The notes below the pieces were generated by a model that did no database searches, was not told where the DNA came from, and saw nothing but the letters and a program-made list of their open reading frames with translations. Shown piece after piece: positions 6,654 through 58,142 of a DNA stretch of 64,000 nt. Source of the DNA: Bolinopsis microptera (taxonomy: Eukaryota > Ctenophora > Tentaculata > Lobata > Bolinopsidae). The stretch's first letter is position 1; every line of letters begins with the position of its first letter. The stretch lies in NCBI RefSeq assembly GCF_026151205.1, contig NC_087077.1:18700975-18764974 (forward strand), in the 5' to 3' direction. Made by a program: the position numbers and the translations under genes.

Positions 6654-14998
<8,345 letters not shown>

Positions 14999-19675: not shown

Positions 19676-50612
<30,937 letters not shown>

Positions 50613-51644: not shown

Positions 51645-51930
51645 CAGTGGCGTAACGTTGCCTGTTGGCGCCCCCGCCGAAAAGGCGCCCCCCTGTTGGC
51701 GCCCCCTCCCCTTTCGGTGCCCCTCCCAAAAATTGAACAAATTAGGTGATTTTAGAGGATACGCCGGTAAAATCTCTAAAAAAGTGTGTATCTAGAGCAA
51801 AACGCGCAGTTTTGCTAGTACTTTAGTTAATTTTTCGAAATTTTCCCACATTCAAACGACGATTTGGCGCCCCCCTAAGACGGCGCCCCCCTGCACAGCG
51901 GGGTCAGCGGGACCCTTTGTCACGCCACTG
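51645..51930 (+). mobile_element. hAT-type MITE, copy 2 (286 bp)
   Basis: Same CAGTGGCGTAACG terminus as copy 1, ending CACGCCACTG. A perfect 8-bp duplication AGCTCCTT flanks it (51637-51644 and 51931-51938). Compared with copy 1 it has extra C-rich blocks (GGCGCCCCC) near both ends, so the two copies are not simple recent duplicates. It ends 25 bases before the sequence shared with the LINE. Confidence 0.93.
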
Positions 51931-52063
51931 AGCTCCTTATAAAATCAAATCAATGTTTTAATACTTTCAACACTACTATATAACAAATAATTTGAGGTCC
52001 TGAGGCCTGTCTGACGGGACACCACCCTGAACGGTCCACCGGCTGCCCCCGCCTCTACTGATA

Positions 52064-53980
52064 ATGGTTAATAAGCAAACAGAAAACAACAAGAAGAAGC
52101 TCAGCCTGAATAGCCCGAAGTTCAAGACGCCTGAAATCCGGAGTCCAATGTACGGCAAATCCCAGGGTAGCACCACACGGAGTAGATCCAGGAGTGAAGG
52201 TGACCAGAAGAATGTTAACTCAACATTAGCTACCACACCGACAAGTTCAGAGAACCGAAGCCTTCTGCAAGTATCCCTTCTCAACCGCACGGGAGTATCA
52301 CCAGGAATATCACCACTAGCAACCCCCTTCTCAGATACTGAAGCAGAGACCTCAGCCTCAGACAGCAACAGTGCATCACCGAAACCCAAGCCCAAGAAGA
52401 GCAAATGCCCCTGCAAGGCAACTTCAGGCGGGAAGTCTTGGCTCTTGACATGTTCGCGCTGTAACCAAGTCTGGCATTCTGCTTGTGCAAACCTTAAGGG
52501 CAGTGAACTAGCTGGCCAGAAAGCCATTGATGAAATACTTAAGAGTTGGGAATGCCCTTGGTGCTACACATGCCCTCATCCCTGCCCAAAAACACATAAG
52601 TCTGCCAAACTTGCATTAAAACTGGAGTCTTTATCAGAAGCAAATCAGGTGTCAGCATCAGTTATTGAATCTCTTGACGGCATGCTTAAGGCAAGATTTG
52701 CAGAAATCACCCAACCATCCAACAATCTAATTGATAGTATCCAGAAACAACTCAGCTCCCTGTCAGATCAGGTAAAGTCCATGCAGATTCCTCAGGCACC
52801 ACCCCCACCACCCTCTGATATGCCCTCCACGTATGGACAGCAGCATCATCCAAGAGCACCTCCATCAGTTCCAAGGATTGAAGTAAAGGATACCCCCCTT
52901 ACTCATAATTTTAAATGCATAGAAGGGATAAAGGAAGATTTCTTAACTCCTGATGAAGAGATGGAGCTCACAGACTTTCTCAAAGCTGAGAGTTTCACTA
53001 AAGAAGGTAAGCATGCCACAATCCAGTATGGCCAACATTACCACTACATGGGTGCAAAATCGGAACCAAAGCCCATGCCCACCCTGATTGGCAACATCAT
53101 GAAACGTCTTAACACTGAATTCTCCTCCACACACCCCCAGAAACAGTTCCACTATGACCTAAACTCCTGCCTGGTTAACAGGTATGCAGATGGGAATGAA
53201 GCACTTCCTGAACATTCAGACAACGAGGGAGACATTAATCGGGTGTCATCGATATTCACAGTTTCCTTAGGCTCATGTCGAACACTTAGCTTTCGTGAAA
53301 CTTCTACAGATAAGATTACGGAGATAAAATGTCAGGGTAGAAGCATGTACCATATGACAAAAGCAAGCCAGGAGTTTTTTAAACACTCAATCAAGCCTGA
53401 AACGTCTGATGAAGTAGGAATGCGATATAGTCTAACCTTTCGCTCAATCCACTGGTCAAATTTTAACTCCACAGTGCTTGTTGGAGATTCAAACTTTGGA
53501 CAAATCAACTTTGGTACAGGTCGTGGAAAGATGGGACAAGCCACCCCTGGAGTTCGCCTCTGGGCAGCTACGGTTGAGGAGATCGATCCCTTGTCTTGTG
53601 TAGGTTACAGAAACGTTGTCATCATGGAAGGAACCAACAATTTAAAAGTAGATGGAACGGATGAGAGAGAGTTGTATACCAAGTATAAGAACAAAATCGC
53701 TCAGATTAGGAAATACAACCCACGTTGTAAACTGATAATCTGTCCTGTGCTGCCAACAAGGTCGCATAAGATCAATCAAAAAGTTAATGTTTTTAACCAG
53801 TATTTGTACAACGATCTCAGTCAATCTAATCTTAAAGTTCTAATTGTTGATAGCTTTTTGACATTTCTAGATAAAAGCACCAACCTGCTTAAGAACAGTC
53901 TAGCTAAGTCTGATGTGAATGATATTCTTCATATTAATGGCAAGGGCGTTGGCCGTTGGTGCACTAGTCAAGTTAATTAA
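52064..53980 (+). CDS. LINE ORF1: PHD finger + AlkB-like dioxygenase + SGNH esterase
   Basis: 638 residues, intact. Residues 1-113 are disordered and Ser/Lys-rich. A PHD-type zinc finger has C115, C117, C130, C133, H138, C141, C164 and C167. Residues 180-240 look helical; a Pro-rich linker follows. Residues about 280-462 form an AlkB-type 2-oxoglutarate/Fe(II) domain: N372 and Y374 in NRYADG, iron ligands H384 and D386 (PEHSDNEGD) and H441, and R454 and R460 in RYSLTFR, matching the AlkB pattern of 2-oxoglutarate-binding and nucleic-acid-side arginines. Residues 466-638 form an SGNH hydrolase: S476 in VGDSN, GTNN at 523-526 and D620/H623 in DILH. PHD and esterase domains are established in CR1 ORF1 proteins. 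AlkB enzymes oxidatively demethylate N-alkylated bases in DNA or RNA, so repair or demethylation of the element's own RNA is a possible role (inference). Confidence 0.92.
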   Translation: MVNKQTENNKKKLSLNSPKFKTPEIRSPMYGKSQGSTTRSRSRSEGDQKNVNSTLATTPTSSENRSLLQVSLLNRTGVSPGISPLATPFSDTEAETSASDSNSASPKPKPKKSKCPCKATSGGKSWLLTCSRCNQVWHSACANLKGSELAGQKAIDEILKSWECPWCYTCPHPCPKTHKSAKLALKLESLSEANQVSASVIESLDGMLKARFAEITQPSNNLIDSIQKQLSSLSDQVKSMQIPQAPPPPPSDMPSTYGQQHHPRAPPSVPRIEVKDTPLTHNFKCIEGIKEDFLTPDEEMELTDFLKAESFTKEGKHATIQYGQHYHYMGAKSEPKPMPTLIGNIMKRLNTEFSSTHPQKQFHYDLNSCLVNRYADGNEALPEHSDNEGDINRVSSIFTVSLGSCRTLSFRETSTDKITEIKCQGRSMYHMTKASQEFFKHSIKPETSDEVGMRYSLTFRSIHWSNFNSTVLVGDSNFGQINFGTGRGKMGQATPGVRLWAATVEEIDPLSCVGYRNVVIMEGTNNLKVDGTDERELYTKYKNKIAQIRKYNPRCKLIICPVLPTRSHKINQKVNVFNQYLYNDLSQSNLKVLIVDSFLTFLDKSTNLLKNSLAKSDVNDILHINGKGVGRWCTSQVN

Positions 53981-54079
53981 GAACTGTATTTTTACATCCA
54001 AGGATCATAACAAGTTAGTAGGTAGTAGATTGTACAGCAACACACTAAGAGGAGGACCGCCAGATGCAGTCTGATATAA

Positions 54080-56527
54080 ATGTTTAAGATTAACTCAACT
54101 AAGGAGAAATGCGGATGCTGTAGCAAAAACATTAATATTGGCCAAAGATTTCTTGAGTGCCAAAGTTGCCAAAATATTATCCACAAAATTTGTTTCAAAA
54201 CATCTGAATTCAAGCTGACTGATTCCATACTTCTCTGTAAAGTTTGCTCAAAAAGAGAAAACTTAATTTACAACCCGTTTAAGGACCTTTGTACCACAAA
54301 TGAGGATCTCTTCAAGGATAGCGAGAATGACAAATTTTACTCCGAAAATTGGTCTGAGGCTATTGGAAGTCTTCAGACTGCCTCCTCTATCTTGGACAAA
54401 TGCAGCTATTATAGATTGAAATCCTTACACCAGCACACCCCTGAAAACTCTGGCTTAAAAACTTTATTTTACAACATTGATGGTAATAAATCGAATTTCG
54501 ACTTATTCCTCTCGGAACTTGCCACTCAAAAAACGAAATTTTCTATTCTAGCTTTAGCGGAAACAAATACAGATGCTGAGAACTGTGATGTTTATGCACT
54601 TGATGGATATTCACACTTTTACGGAGATAAACTCCAAGGCAAAGCTAAAGGCTCAGGCGTGTGCTTGTATATTCATGATTCCCTAAATGCAACAATTAAT
54701 GACCAACTTTGCACAATCACACCAAATTTAGAAACCCTATATGTAACTATCAACCATGGAGATAGCAAACTCAATGTTGGGGTGTTGTACAGATCTCCAA
54801 ACGGAGACTCAGTCAAATTTGATGAAGAATACACACAATTAATGTCCAAATTTCCAAAAAATGCAAAAACTATAACTCTTGGAGATTTCAACTACGATTT
54901 GCTTAAAAATCAGAGTAATAAAAAACAGGTTCAGAATTTCGAGAACACTATGCTCTCTTATGGTTACTTTCCTCTTATATCTCGTCCCACTCACTCAGTA
55001 AATGTAGGCCAAAGCTCCTGCATTGACAACATTTTTACTGATGAGATTGACTTGGTAACCCTCTCTGGAGTTATTGAAGACACTTCTTCCCATCATAAAC
55101 CAATCTTTGCTTTCTTTGACATCAGTCATTTAACTTCTAGGAAAACTTCCCCTAAGCCTAAGCAATTGCAAAGCTATGATTTCTCAAACCGAAATGTTGA
55201 ACTACTAACAAAACACTTGCTATCTAAGAAATGCATACTAACAAACAATGAAAATCCAATTGAATTTGACGACTTTTTTGAAATTTTTAGCTCAGCTATT
55301 GACTCATGTTGTAAACTCGACAAACCCAAACTCACCAAACGAAATCCTATAAGTAATCCCTGGATATCCGACAGCATAATTGAAGCAATTGAAAAGAAAG
55401 GTCAGCTGTATGATAACTGGGTGAACTCAAAAAAGCTCCCTGACTTCAAGCCAGTTGGAGATCTGAAACTCCACAAAATTTTTCGTGATTACAGACGCTG
55501 TCTTAAAAAGATAATAAAAAACCAAAAAGATACCTATAACTGTAACAAAATTCTTGAAAATTCTGATAGTTCTAAAAAGATGTGGGAAGTAATAAATGAG
55601 ATAAGAGGGAAAAGGAAAAAAACCATCAAACCCCAATTTATGGTAGATGGAGTCCGTGTTGTTGAAAGACGGGTGATAGCCAACAAATTTAATGAGTACT
55701 TTGCCTCTATTGCCTCAAAAATGAATGAAAATACTCATAATGGCCTTCTTTTAGAACCTCTTCCCTCTTTCCTCGAATTCATGCCACCAAAAACTCTCGA
55801 TTCAATTTACTTCCATGACTGTAGTGAAGATGAAATTTCTGAGATTATAGCCAACTTGAAGAGTGGGAAAGCTAGCGACTTTCCCATAAGAGTAATCAAA
55901 AAACTATCGGGTATTCTTAGCCCAACTCTTGTTGTTCAATTTAATCGCCTAATATCTCAAGGGATATTTCCGTCAGTTCTGAAGCTTGGCAAAATAACCC
56001 CAATATACAAAAAAGATAACGAAGAACTGATTGAGAACTACAGGCCTGTTTCCACACTTCCAATTTTTGGTAAAATTTTTGAAAAGATAATATACAAACG
56101 TCTTTACAGCTTCTTGGTTAGTCAAGGAATCCTTCACGACAGTCAATTCGGATTCCGAAAGAGTCACTCAACATCACATGCACTTAACTACTCAGTTTTT
56201 CACATCCAAAAGGCCCTAAAGCAAGGTCTTCATGTTCTAGGAATTTTTATTGATCTAAGCAAGGCTTTTGACACAATAGACCACACAATTTTGCTTGAGA
56301 AACTTGAAATATATGGGATTAGAGGAGTGCCACTTAAGTTACTGGAAAGTTACTTGTCGGACAGAGAGCAGTGTGTGTCCGTCCTGGGCGAAGTATCAGA
56401 CAGACTTCCTGTTCTCTATGGCGTTCCACAGGGGAGCTGCCTTGGGCCTCTCCTGTTTTTAATATACATAAATGACGAAATTCCTGGGAGTAATTGTCGA
56501 CGAAGGCCTAACTTTCAATCCCTATAG
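54080..56527 (+). CDS. LINE ORF2, N-terminal part: PHD-like finger, endonuclease, RT motifs A-B
   Basis: 815 codons to a frameshifted end. A PHD-like zinc finger has C11, C14, C27, C30, H35, C38, C53 and C56. The apurinic/apyrimidinic-type endonuclease spans about 126-345: N132, E161 (LAET), Y237 in VLYRSPN, D269/N271 in LGDFNYDLL and SCIDNIF. The usual final S-D-H motif reads S337-H338-H339, so the catalytic Asp position appears to be His. Reverse transcriptase follows: NYRPVSTLP, FGFRKSHST, motif A FIDLSKAFDT (D725) and motif B GVPQGSCLGP. Soon after YIND (796-799) the frame runs into out-of-register sequence because the segment with motif C is gone. The product would lack a working polymerase site. 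Confidence 0.88.
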   Translation: MFKINSTKEKCGCCSKNINIGQRFLECQSCQNIIHKICFKTSEFKLTDSILLCKVCSKRENLIYNPFKDLCTTNEDLFKDSENDKFYSENWSEAIGSLQTASSILDKCSYYRLKSLHQHTPENSGLKTLFYNIDGNKSNFDLFLSELATQKTKFSILALAETNTDAENCDVYALDGYSHFYGDKLQGKAKGSGVCLYIHDSLNATINDQLCTITPNLETLYVTINHGDSKLNVGVLYRSPNGDSVKFDEEYTQLMSKFPKNAKTITLGDFNYDLLKNQSNKKQVQNFENTMLSYGYFPLISRPTHSVNVGQSSCIDNIFTDEIDLVTLSGVIEDTSSHHKPIFAFFDISHLTSRKTSPKPKQLQSYDFSNRNVELLTKHLLSKKCILTNNENPIEFDDFFEIFSSAIDSCCKLDKPKLTKRNPISNPWISDSIIEAIEKKGQLYDNWVNSKKLPDFKPVGDLKLHKIFRDYRRCLKKIIKNQKDTYNCNKILENSDSSKKMWEVINEIRGKRKKTIKPQFMVDGVRVVERRVIANKFNEYFASIASKMNENTHNGLLLEPLPSFLEFMPPKTLDSIYFHDCSEDEISEIIANLKSGKASDFPIRVIKKLSGILSPTLVVQFNRLISQGIFPSVLKLGKITPIYKKDNEELIENYRPVSTLPIFGKIFEKIIYKRLYSFLVSQGILHDSQFGFRKSHSTSHALNYSVFHIQKALKQGLHVLGIFIDLSKAFDTIDHTILLEKLEIYGIRGVPLKLLESYLSDREQCVSVLGEVSDRLPVLYGVPQGSCLGPLLFLIYINDEIPGSNCRRRPNFQSL

Positions 56528-57203
56528 AGACAAACTAGTTAGAAAACTCTCGTCCTGTTCTGGGAGGCTATACATGATTAAGGATAAAATTCCATCATCT
56601 ATCCATAAGGACCTGTACCACACACTTTTTGAAAGTCACCTATCTTATGGCATTACCGTTTGGGGAGGTGCAAGTAATAATAAACTTCAACCACTATTTG
56701 TAGCCCAGAAAAAGTGTGTTCGTATCATGTTTGGTGACAAAAAAGCATACCTTGATAAATTTATGACATGTGCTAGGACTAGACCTATCAGTGAACAGAA
56801 ACTTACTAGCACATTCTTTGAGAGAGAGCACACCAAGCCAATTTTTGCCCGTCAATCACTCATGACATTGCATAATTTATACGCGTATCACTGCTGCAAT
56901 GAACTTTTTAAAGTCTTTAAATATCGAACACCAATTGCACTATTTGAACTTTTCTGTTTGTCTAAAAGACCCGGCAAAGAAACTCTTCTTATAACAACCA
57001 TGCCCTCAAACAGTTTCGTTTACAAATCTAGTTGCCTTTGGAATTCATTCCGTCAGATGTTGGCACTGAACGACCTTGAAATCACTCATGGTGTATTCAA
57101 ATCAAAGGTAAAAAAAGTCATTCTCTCGTCTCAGGGTAAAGGTGACAAGAATACCTGGGCCCCTTTGGCAAACTTTCTGAACTCAGGCAGCTTGAACGAC
57201 TAA
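56472..57203 (+). pseudogene. LINE ORF2, C-terminal part in another frame
   Basis: Begins at the deletion junction with TKFLGVIVDEGL, which in CR1/L2 proteins lies about 100 residues after YIND, and continues with SHLSYGITVWGG and CVRIMFG, all typical of the thumb and tail of these enzymes. It ends with a stop at 57203. Both sides of the junction align to adjacent parts of one protein, so this is an internal deletion and not a second element. The FADD/YADD catalytic motif is missing. Confidence 0.88.
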
Positions 57204-57760
57204 ATTTGGAAAAATAAAACTTCTTGTCTGAATGAACTATTAGAACCTCAAGAAGCTGATCCGCATGTCTCCGCTACTAAAATGTTTAATGAGCCCAATC
57301 ACTCATCACTTAACAGTTTAATCTTCAAAGTGAGTTGTACAATCTAGGTTGTTTTAAGTAGCTGTTGATAGTGTAAAACAGGAGTGACTTGATCGTTTTC
57401 ATAACTTCGATTTACAATTTGTACCATAATAAAACTAGCACTGCCATGGGGTTCAAAAAGGGTCATTGTAAGCCTCCAGCGTAATGGTCCTAAGTCTCTG
57501 CCCCGTGCAGTGCCTGTCAGCATCAGCTAACAGAATAGCCCTAACATAACGATCAAGCCACAAATTAGGTTCTATAATGATTTAATATTGTTGAATAAAG
57601 AGATTTGAATATAATATTTGTTTTATTCTGAATATTTGTTTTATTCTGACATAAACGTAAATGTTTCGTGTTCAACTTTGACAATCTATTTCTAAGGAAA
57701 ACGACATTGCATAATGAATAATCGATGTATGGTTTTTTTTCTCATATGCAGTAAGGACAC

Positions 57761-58080
57761 CCAAATAAGATCTCAAAGGAGCTATTTTGCTCTAACTAGA
57801 GCCCTCTCGCTTGCAGTAGCGCACGTGAAACAAGCGCTTGCTTCAAACCTTCGGGGATCGCACACTACTTTAAACGAGAGGGCTTTAGTTTAAGCAACAT
57901 CGGGACCAAGGACTAGCGTACCAAATAAGATCTCAAAGGAGCTATTTTGCTCTAACCAGAGCCCTCTCGCTTGCAGTAGCGCACGTGAAACAAGCGCTTG
58001 CTTCAAACCTTCGGGGAACGCACACTACTGTAAGCGAGAGGGCTTTAGTTTAAGCAACATCGGGACCAAGGACTAGCGTA
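57761..58080. repeat. 160-bp tandem duplication with internal inverted repeats
   Basis: Two copies (57761-57920 and 57921-58080) plus the start of a third, differing at a few bases. Each copy contains AGCCCTCTCGCTTGCAGTAG and, inverted, CTACTNTAANCGAGAGGGCT, giving a hairpin around CACGTG and GCGCTTGC. Related AGAGCCCTCTCGCTTGCAGT sequence recurs at about 59597, and a weaker relative at about 60195. Probably ends of a non-autonomous transposon family. Confidence 0.85.
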
Positions 58081-58142
58081 CCAAATAAGTTTAACAGAAA
58101 ATGATAAATTTTTAACAGCGCAGTAAATGTTTAAAAAGCGTT

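Follow-up and report, generated by a model that had tools for sequence, protein, structure and literature searches.

A LINE family in ctenophores with an AlkB-type dioxygenase domain between the PHD finger and the esterase of its ORF1 protein

Domain structure of ORF1

We analysed a 64,000-bp stretch of the genome of the ctenophore Bolinopsis microptera (contig NC_087077.1, positions 18,700,975 to 18,764,974 of the forward strand; hereafter the window, in which positions are counted from the first letter). It carries a copy of a long interspersed nuclear element (LINE) whose first open reading frame (ORF1) encodes, in a single polypeptide, a PHD-type zinc finger, a probable coiled coil, an AlkB-type dioxygenase and an SGNH esterase, followed by an ORF2 (Table 1). 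The original prediction, made from the letters of the sequence alone, had proposed three of these modules in one ORF1, and Pfam indeed recovered PF16866, PF13532 and PF13472 in that order. The residues it had named (NRY, H384-x-D386, H441, R454-Y-S-L-T-F-R460, GDS(N) and D-x-x-H) all lie where it had placed them.

Table 1. Features of the LINE copy in the window
Feature	Position	Strand	Remarks
LINE copy, approximate extent	51999..57648	+	5′ junction falls within a short repeat, and a direct repeat of 18 bp forms the 3′ end; ends inferred
ORF1 frame, 638 aa: PHD, probable coiled coil, AlkB, SGNH	52064..53980	+	in the family frame up to residue 630
PHD-type zinc finger, residues 113-170	52400..52573	+	Pfam PF16866 and family alignment
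Probable coiled coil for multimerisation, with long helices 179-215 and 221-239	52598..52780	+	helices predicted in the AlphaFold model
AlkB-type Fe(II)/2-oxoglutarate dioxygenase domain, residues 275-465	52886..53458	+	metal ligands H384, D386, H441; signature R454, R460
SGNH/GDSL esterase domain, residues 470-628	53471..53947	+	GDSN, GxNN, D-x-x-H; Pfam PF13472 and family alignment
Family ORF1 C-terminus, 37 residues and stop, next frame	53961..54074	+	identical to the P0002 end
ORF2 up to the frame break: APE-type endonuclease, initial two thirds of the reverse transcriptase, and possibly a zinc finger at the N-terminus	54080..56527	+	
ORF2 remainder, other frame after an inferred internal deletion	56472..57203	+	no Pfam match of its own
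18-bp repeat in two copies close to the LINE 3′ end, instead of a poly(A) tail	57613..57648	+	possible role as 3′ tail

The AlkB match that had been anticipated is significant (PF13532, E-value 3.3e-18, residues 310-460, 67 bits against a cut-off of 31.2). In the single sequence the two other modules stay below their curated cut-offs: PF16866 matched residues 121-168 at 3.9e-6 (27.2 bits against 30.6) and PF13472 residues 483-628 at 4.7e-6 (27.7 bits against 32.9). Their identity is nevertheless backed, because the family alignment and the profile searches agree. The alignment of full-length sequences has 60 rows, P0001 plus 59 relatives picked for length and spread from the 103 described below. 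Each of the PHD ligands C115, C117, C130, C133, H138, C141, C164 and C167 is retained in 56-60 of them. As for the catalytic blocks of the esterase, S476 and N525 are present in all 60 rows, D620 in 58 and H623 in 59. The family profile matched BPTF around the PHD finger (E-value 0.0081), and it matched SGNH hydrolases, the best being 2hsj (2.6e-5), together with an "ORF1-encoded protein", 4c1b (0.0024), presumably the ZfL2-1 esterase. Pfam gave no match to an RNA recognition motif (RRM) or a zinc knuckle in the window ORF1 (at an E-value of 1) or in the 60 rows (at 0.001). One match to Allexi_40kDa (PF05549, 1.7e-4) among these rows was treated as noise.

Identity and predicted fold of the AlkB domain

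When the AlkB domain was searched by sequence against the Protein Data Bank (PDB), the top match was ALKBH2, with an E-value of 2.7e-5 for the single sequence and 1.2e-14 for a profile built from 12 family AlkB segments. Behind it came ALKBH3, ALKBH8, an N6-methyladenine demethylase and E. coli AlkB. Each of H384, D386, H441, R454 and R460 aligned to an identical residue of ALKBH2, and we take these residues to be the ligands of that enzyme. The model predicts, with high confidence, a double-stranded beta-helix fold of the ALKBH2/3 type that superposes on ALKBH3 and ALKBH2 (21-24 % identity in the structural alignments). This is the fold the original prediction had led us to expect, but the correct pairing of the H-D-H-R-R set comes from the sequence alignment rather than from model coordinates. 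The matches listed for a structure search with the full-length ORF1 model all fall on the AlkB part. The LINE domain differs from ALKBH2 and ALKBH3 in that it sits in a LINE ORF1, joined to an esterase at constant spacing.

Conservation in the family

A protein search recovered 103 relatives at an E-value of 1e-3 or lower among 277 candidates. Their identity across the aligned AlkB region ranges from 34 to 100 %, and the median AlkB identity in the family is 41 %. The complete H-D-H-R-R set is found in 101 relatives, the exceptions being P0084, with Q for the first R, and the truncated P0104. Columns were counted over the window copy and all relatives but P0104, 103 rows in total. No row deviates at H384, D386, E388, H441, S456, T458 or R460, and R454 is present in 102; an independent 104-row alignment agrees. 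The distance between the final arginine of AlkB and the GDSN motif is 13 residues in 102 of these rows, the window copy among them, and 14 in one, so that AlkB and esterase look like one fixed unit. Mean pairwise identity in the 60 full-length rows is 0.44 for AlkB, 0.47 for SGNH and 0.47 for PHD, compared with 0.25 for the N-terminus and 0.24 for the linker. At an E-value of 0.001, Pfam recognised PF13532 in all 60 rows, PF13472 in 41 and PF16866 in 21.

Strict patterns placed the PHD finger, the AlkB domain and a GDSN-like esterase start together and in that order in 64 of the 103 relatives. Scanned separately in 102 relatives, the PHD pattern occurred in 64, the AlkB pattern in 102 and a stricter esterase serine pattern in 87; the esterase D-x-x-H pattern proved too narrow (23/102) and alignment columns were used instead. 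Many of the 38 relatives without the PHD pattern are short or fragments. AlkB-SGNH relatives such as P0099 and P0101 have a different N-terminus without a PHD finger, and in these two Pfam recognises AlkB alone at 0.01. This suggests that several N-terminal modules have been joined to the AlkB-SGNH pair.

An AlkB-less sister ORF1 among the close esterase relatives was considered and discarded. A search with residues 466-630, which reaches only relatives with common exact five-residue words, gave 33 matches, 32 of them with PF13532. The remaining one was P0104 (Mnemiopsis leidyi ACHWQZ_G016046), a host gene model in which nothing but the end of the AlkB segment is left. This end and the esterase start are fused there with domains of glutathione S-transferase, ubiquitin-like and ribosomal S30 type. 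This chimera may be a read-through or an annotation artefact.

ORF2, frame defects and surroundings of the copy

The ORF1 frame had originally been described as intact. It is open over its whole length, but its last residues, 631-638, do not follow the reading frame of P0002 and the rest of the family. P0002, a Bolinopsis microptera protein of 667 aa (LOC134823106), shows 100 % identity across residues 270-480 and has one substitution in the 630 shared residues; it may be another copy of the LINE ORF1 or a corrected model of the window copy. The family C-terminus stops 5 nt ahead of the ORF2 ATG, which further supports ORF1 and ORF2 as parts of one element.

The arrangement, with an endonuclease and reverse transcriptase (RT) ORF2 downstream of ORF1, is that of an APE-type LINE. 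In the first part of ORF2, Pfam matched RVT_1 (6.1e-23, profile positions 3-136 of 205) and, just below its cut-off, Exo_endo_phos (5.4e-5, 23.5 bits against 24.5), with weak C1/PHD zinc-finger matches at the N-terminus (0.013-0.048). The nearest PDB match of ORF2 is human L1 ORF2p (9.2e-15). The frame is interrupted near 56475-56530 and then resumes in another frame, and the catalytic palm motif of the RT is probably among the lost parts. The frame defects may be real or may stem from assembly error.

At the 5′ end, a self-comparison of the window matched 51955-52003 to a palindromic repeat at 28327-28424, and the LINE start was therefore placed at about 51999-52003. This near-perfect palindromic repeat occupies 28319-28432. 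As one of its arms directly adjoins the LINE 5′ end, the element probably inserted into a copy of this repeat, which resembles a miniature inverted-repeat transposable element. The other half of the target repeat was not found downstream beyond the LINE. Neither was a target-site duplication: 51901-52064 and 57201-57800 have no exact word of at least 9 bp in common. Just beyond the 3′ end, at 57761-58089, lies a 160-bp unit in two head-to-tail copies (97-98 % alike).

No further ORF1 copy was found within the window. An RT frame of 405 aa at 8932-10149 on the minus strand apparently belongs to a different LINE-type element (RVT_1 3.9e-25; DUF6451 8.5e-5, below its cut-off). Tandem arrays are present at 148-869 (13 copies of 55 bp, 99 % matches) and at 41611-42114 (25 copies of 20 bp, 95 %), the latter underlying a repetitive 183-aa frame at 41630-42181 on the minus strand.

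Origin of the AlkB domain

A search with AlkB segments alone gave 122 proteins, 120 of which were listed. P0105-P0164 are mainly pieces of the LINE family, since 18 of the 21 with good AlkB coverage run into an esterase start (15 with GDSN, three with a one-letter variant). P0166-P0224 are mostly standalone AlkBs, among the matches listed. We built a tree of 86 rows. It combines 37 LINE AlkBs, left after 99 of good coverage had been thinned at 62 % identity, with 49 other AlkBs from this search; P0164 was placed among the latter although an esterase start follows its AlkB. LINE and other AlkBs are split on one branch with a support of only 53, and six rows have long branches. Nearest to the LINE set are P0164, P0168, P0172, P0196 and P0200, with P0169 inside the same open fork. 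With the low support of the split, the tree singles out no donor. Behind a more distant AlkB, the only domain that Pfam sees in it, P0172 has a proline-rich region and then LMLSDS, where another SGNH-like hydrolase may begin.

Searches of viral contigs confirmed none of 28 pattern matches with the AlkB alignment and two of 76 with the full ORF1 alignment (L001 and L002, 29-30 % over 95 residues of the AlkB part). One scan of prokaryote genome contigs confirmed none of 22, and a phage collection yielded 14 records with 26-30 % identity. Using Foldseek in BFVD, we found that giant-virus, RNA-virus and phage AlkBs match the fold with E-values of 1.9e-14 to 3.1e-10 in the 50 rows listed. The RNA and giant viruses are likewise selfish replicons carrying an AlkB, but the identity to the LINE domain is 14-24 % in these rows. 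A viral origin of the domain would be one possibility; the present tree covers LINE and unnamed AlkBs.

Comparison with known elements

PHD-containing ORF1s of CR1/L2 LINEs were reportedly described by Kapitonov and Jurka in 2003. The CR1/L2 proteins have the N-terminal PHD-type finger in common with ours but carry RRM/zinc knuckles or Tnp22 after it, where the ctenophore LINE has AlkB and SGNH (PMC4120745). Type IV (esterase-type) ORF1s, such as that of zebrafish ZfL2-1, show a coiled coil and then an SGNH esterase, as here (PMC3905857, PMC4120745). In the passages of PMC4120745 consulted, none of the tabulated ORF1 types has a dioxygenase, whereas the ctenophore protein unites PHD, AlkB and esterase; the words AlkB, Mnemiopsis and ctenophore are absent from the main text of that survey.

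A PHD finger and/or an esterase in ORF1 is a trait of the CR1/L2 group. It is present here, but it is not diagnostic. Esterase ORF1s were found only in vertebrate groups of CR1 and L2 according to PMC4120745, and the esterases aligned in PMC3905857 include those of cnidarian and sponge CR1, RTEX and Penelope elements, so the esterase alone leaves the clade unfixed. Placement in CR1/L2 is tentative and draws on the ORF1 modules. The ZfL2-1 esterase binds phospholipids and not oligo(A) RNA, and the esterase-bearing ORF1s in RepBase are without RNA-binding domains (PMC3905857).

A retrotransposon-encoded AlkB is also known from Phalaenopsis, in which Ty3/Gypsy elements carry an ORF for a 2-oxoglutarate-dependent dioxygenase (2-ODD) with N6-methyladenosine (m6A) demethylation activity in vitro (PMC9289625). 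There, however, the element is a plant long terminal repeat retrotransposon and the AlkB lies in a separate ORF described as a recent acquisition, whereas in the ctenophore LINE the AlkB lies inside ORF1, a LINE ORF2 is present and the domain is kept by a diverse family that occurs in at least two ctenophores. TET/JBP-encoding fungal DNA transposons likewise carry a 2-oxoglutarate (2OG) dioxygenase thought to target methylated bases, although both the dioxygenase family and the transposon class are different; TET/JBP were not found in retrotransposons according to that source (PMC12730594). CG methylation is low in Mnemiopsis, at 6.8 % (PMC12221973). We found no report of an AlkB in a LINE among the titles and abstract starts listed for open-licence PMC papers, a scope outside which subscription papers and Repbase fall, so a prior mention is possible.

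Proposed function and alternatives

Many relatives keep the AlkB domain with an unchanged active site, and it is therefore probably a working part of how these LINEs copy themselves. The best explanation, in which we place somewhat more belief than doubt, is a LINE family whose ORF1 protein (ORF1p), with its PHD finger, probable coiled coil and fixed AlkB-SGNH pair, demethylates bases of the element RNA or complementary DNA (cDNA). Judged from sequence, such demethylation of RNA or cDNA is a plausible function of the AlkB. ORF1p would multimerise via the coiled coil and package the element RNA. The AlkB carried in this ribonucleoprotein (RNP) would act like ALKBH2/ALKBH3, relying on Fe(II) and 2-oxoglutarate to remove methyl groups by oxidation from bases in the packaged RNA or in the cDNA that target-primed reverse transcription produces. 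The likeliest marks would be 1-methyladenine (m1A) and 3-methylcytosine (m3C) on the Watson-Crick face, favoured because they are substrates of the ALKBH2/3 type and stop reverse transcriptases; m6A or its DNA counterpart 6mA would be the alternative. Handling of membranes or of the RNP would fall to the esterase and targeting to chromatin to the PHD finger, and the AlkB could also fill the RNA-binding gap of esterase ORF1s. Whether this LINE lineage goes as far as using its own RNP demethylase to clear the RNA template or nascent cDNA of RT-blocking or silencing methyl marks, and so would possess a self-encoded proofreader of template chemistry, is in our judgement evenly balanced.

Several points weigh against the proposed demethylation. 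A common fold, here a predicted one, demonstrates no function by itself, and the nearest folds, ALKBH2/3, suggest a repair-type substrate while leaving the choice between RNA and DNA undecided. Some AlkB relatives use other substrates or may be non-catalytic, and the esterase, not the AlkB, might be the key activity. Species names are limited to seven of the 103 relatives, all of them ctenophores (one Bolinopsis and six Mnemiopsis leidyi). The coupling of ORF1 to ORF2 was observed in the window copy alone, the relatives being known as proteins, and this copy is, by its sequence, decayed and non-autonomous, with the ORF1 end off frame and the RT incomplete.

Instead of unblocking the RT, the AlkB could be an m6A/6mA eraser that lifts epitranscriptomic or epigenetic silencing from the element RNA or the integrated DNA. 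The activity of the orchid Gypsy AlkB on m6A (PMC9289625) would agree with this, as would the dioxygenases of the fungal DNA transposons, which are thought to lift silencing (PMC12730594), and the PHD finger as a hint of chromatin. We regard the eraser as unlikely, though it is the alternative that we take most seriously. In mammals m6A works in the opposite direction, in that the writer METTL3 helps L1 and the eraser ALKBH5 suppresses it (PMC7873242), which counts against the eraser and also against demethylation as proposed above. Less probable again is that the AlkB fold is mainly a nucleic-acid-binding module in place of RRM/zinc knuckles, with catalysis incidental, even though esterase ORF1s lack structured RNA-binding domains (PMC3905857) and Pfam recovered neither module in our searches of the window ORF1 and the family rows. 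Since the metal ligands are invariant and the arginines near-invariant at such a low median identity, the conservation argues for selected catalysis.

Enzymes of the AlkB superfamily that depend on 2OG also hydroxylate proteins, and with a PHD finger in cis to select chromatin, the substrate could be a histone or an RNP component. We give this little credence, as the nearest folds are DNA/RNA repair AlkB enzymes and there is no sequence sign of a protein substrate. The original prediction had also allowed for a one-off capture, and a one-off or decaying capture without function for the element might seem to fit a window copy that is broken in ORF1 and ORF2 as sequenced. The 103 relatives rule this out for practical purposes, with the AlkB segment present and catalytically complete in 101 and the order of PHD, AlkB and GDSN-like start kept in 64. 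The same complete active sites rule out a pseudo-domain.

Significance

LINE ORF1 proteins are mostly regarded as RNA-packaging factors. The family described here adds a second class of retrotransposons with an AlkB, next to the orchid Gypsy elements, and places it in ctenophores, which branch early in the animal tree. P0002 of Bolinopsis and other full-length ORF1s, known as predicted proteins, have complete catalytic sets, and base modification in the conflict between LINE and host becomes testable. If a demethylase is conserved in ORF1, chemical modification of the template RNA or cDNA would have been a barrier to retrotransposition strong enough for a lineage to keep a countermeasure in the long term.
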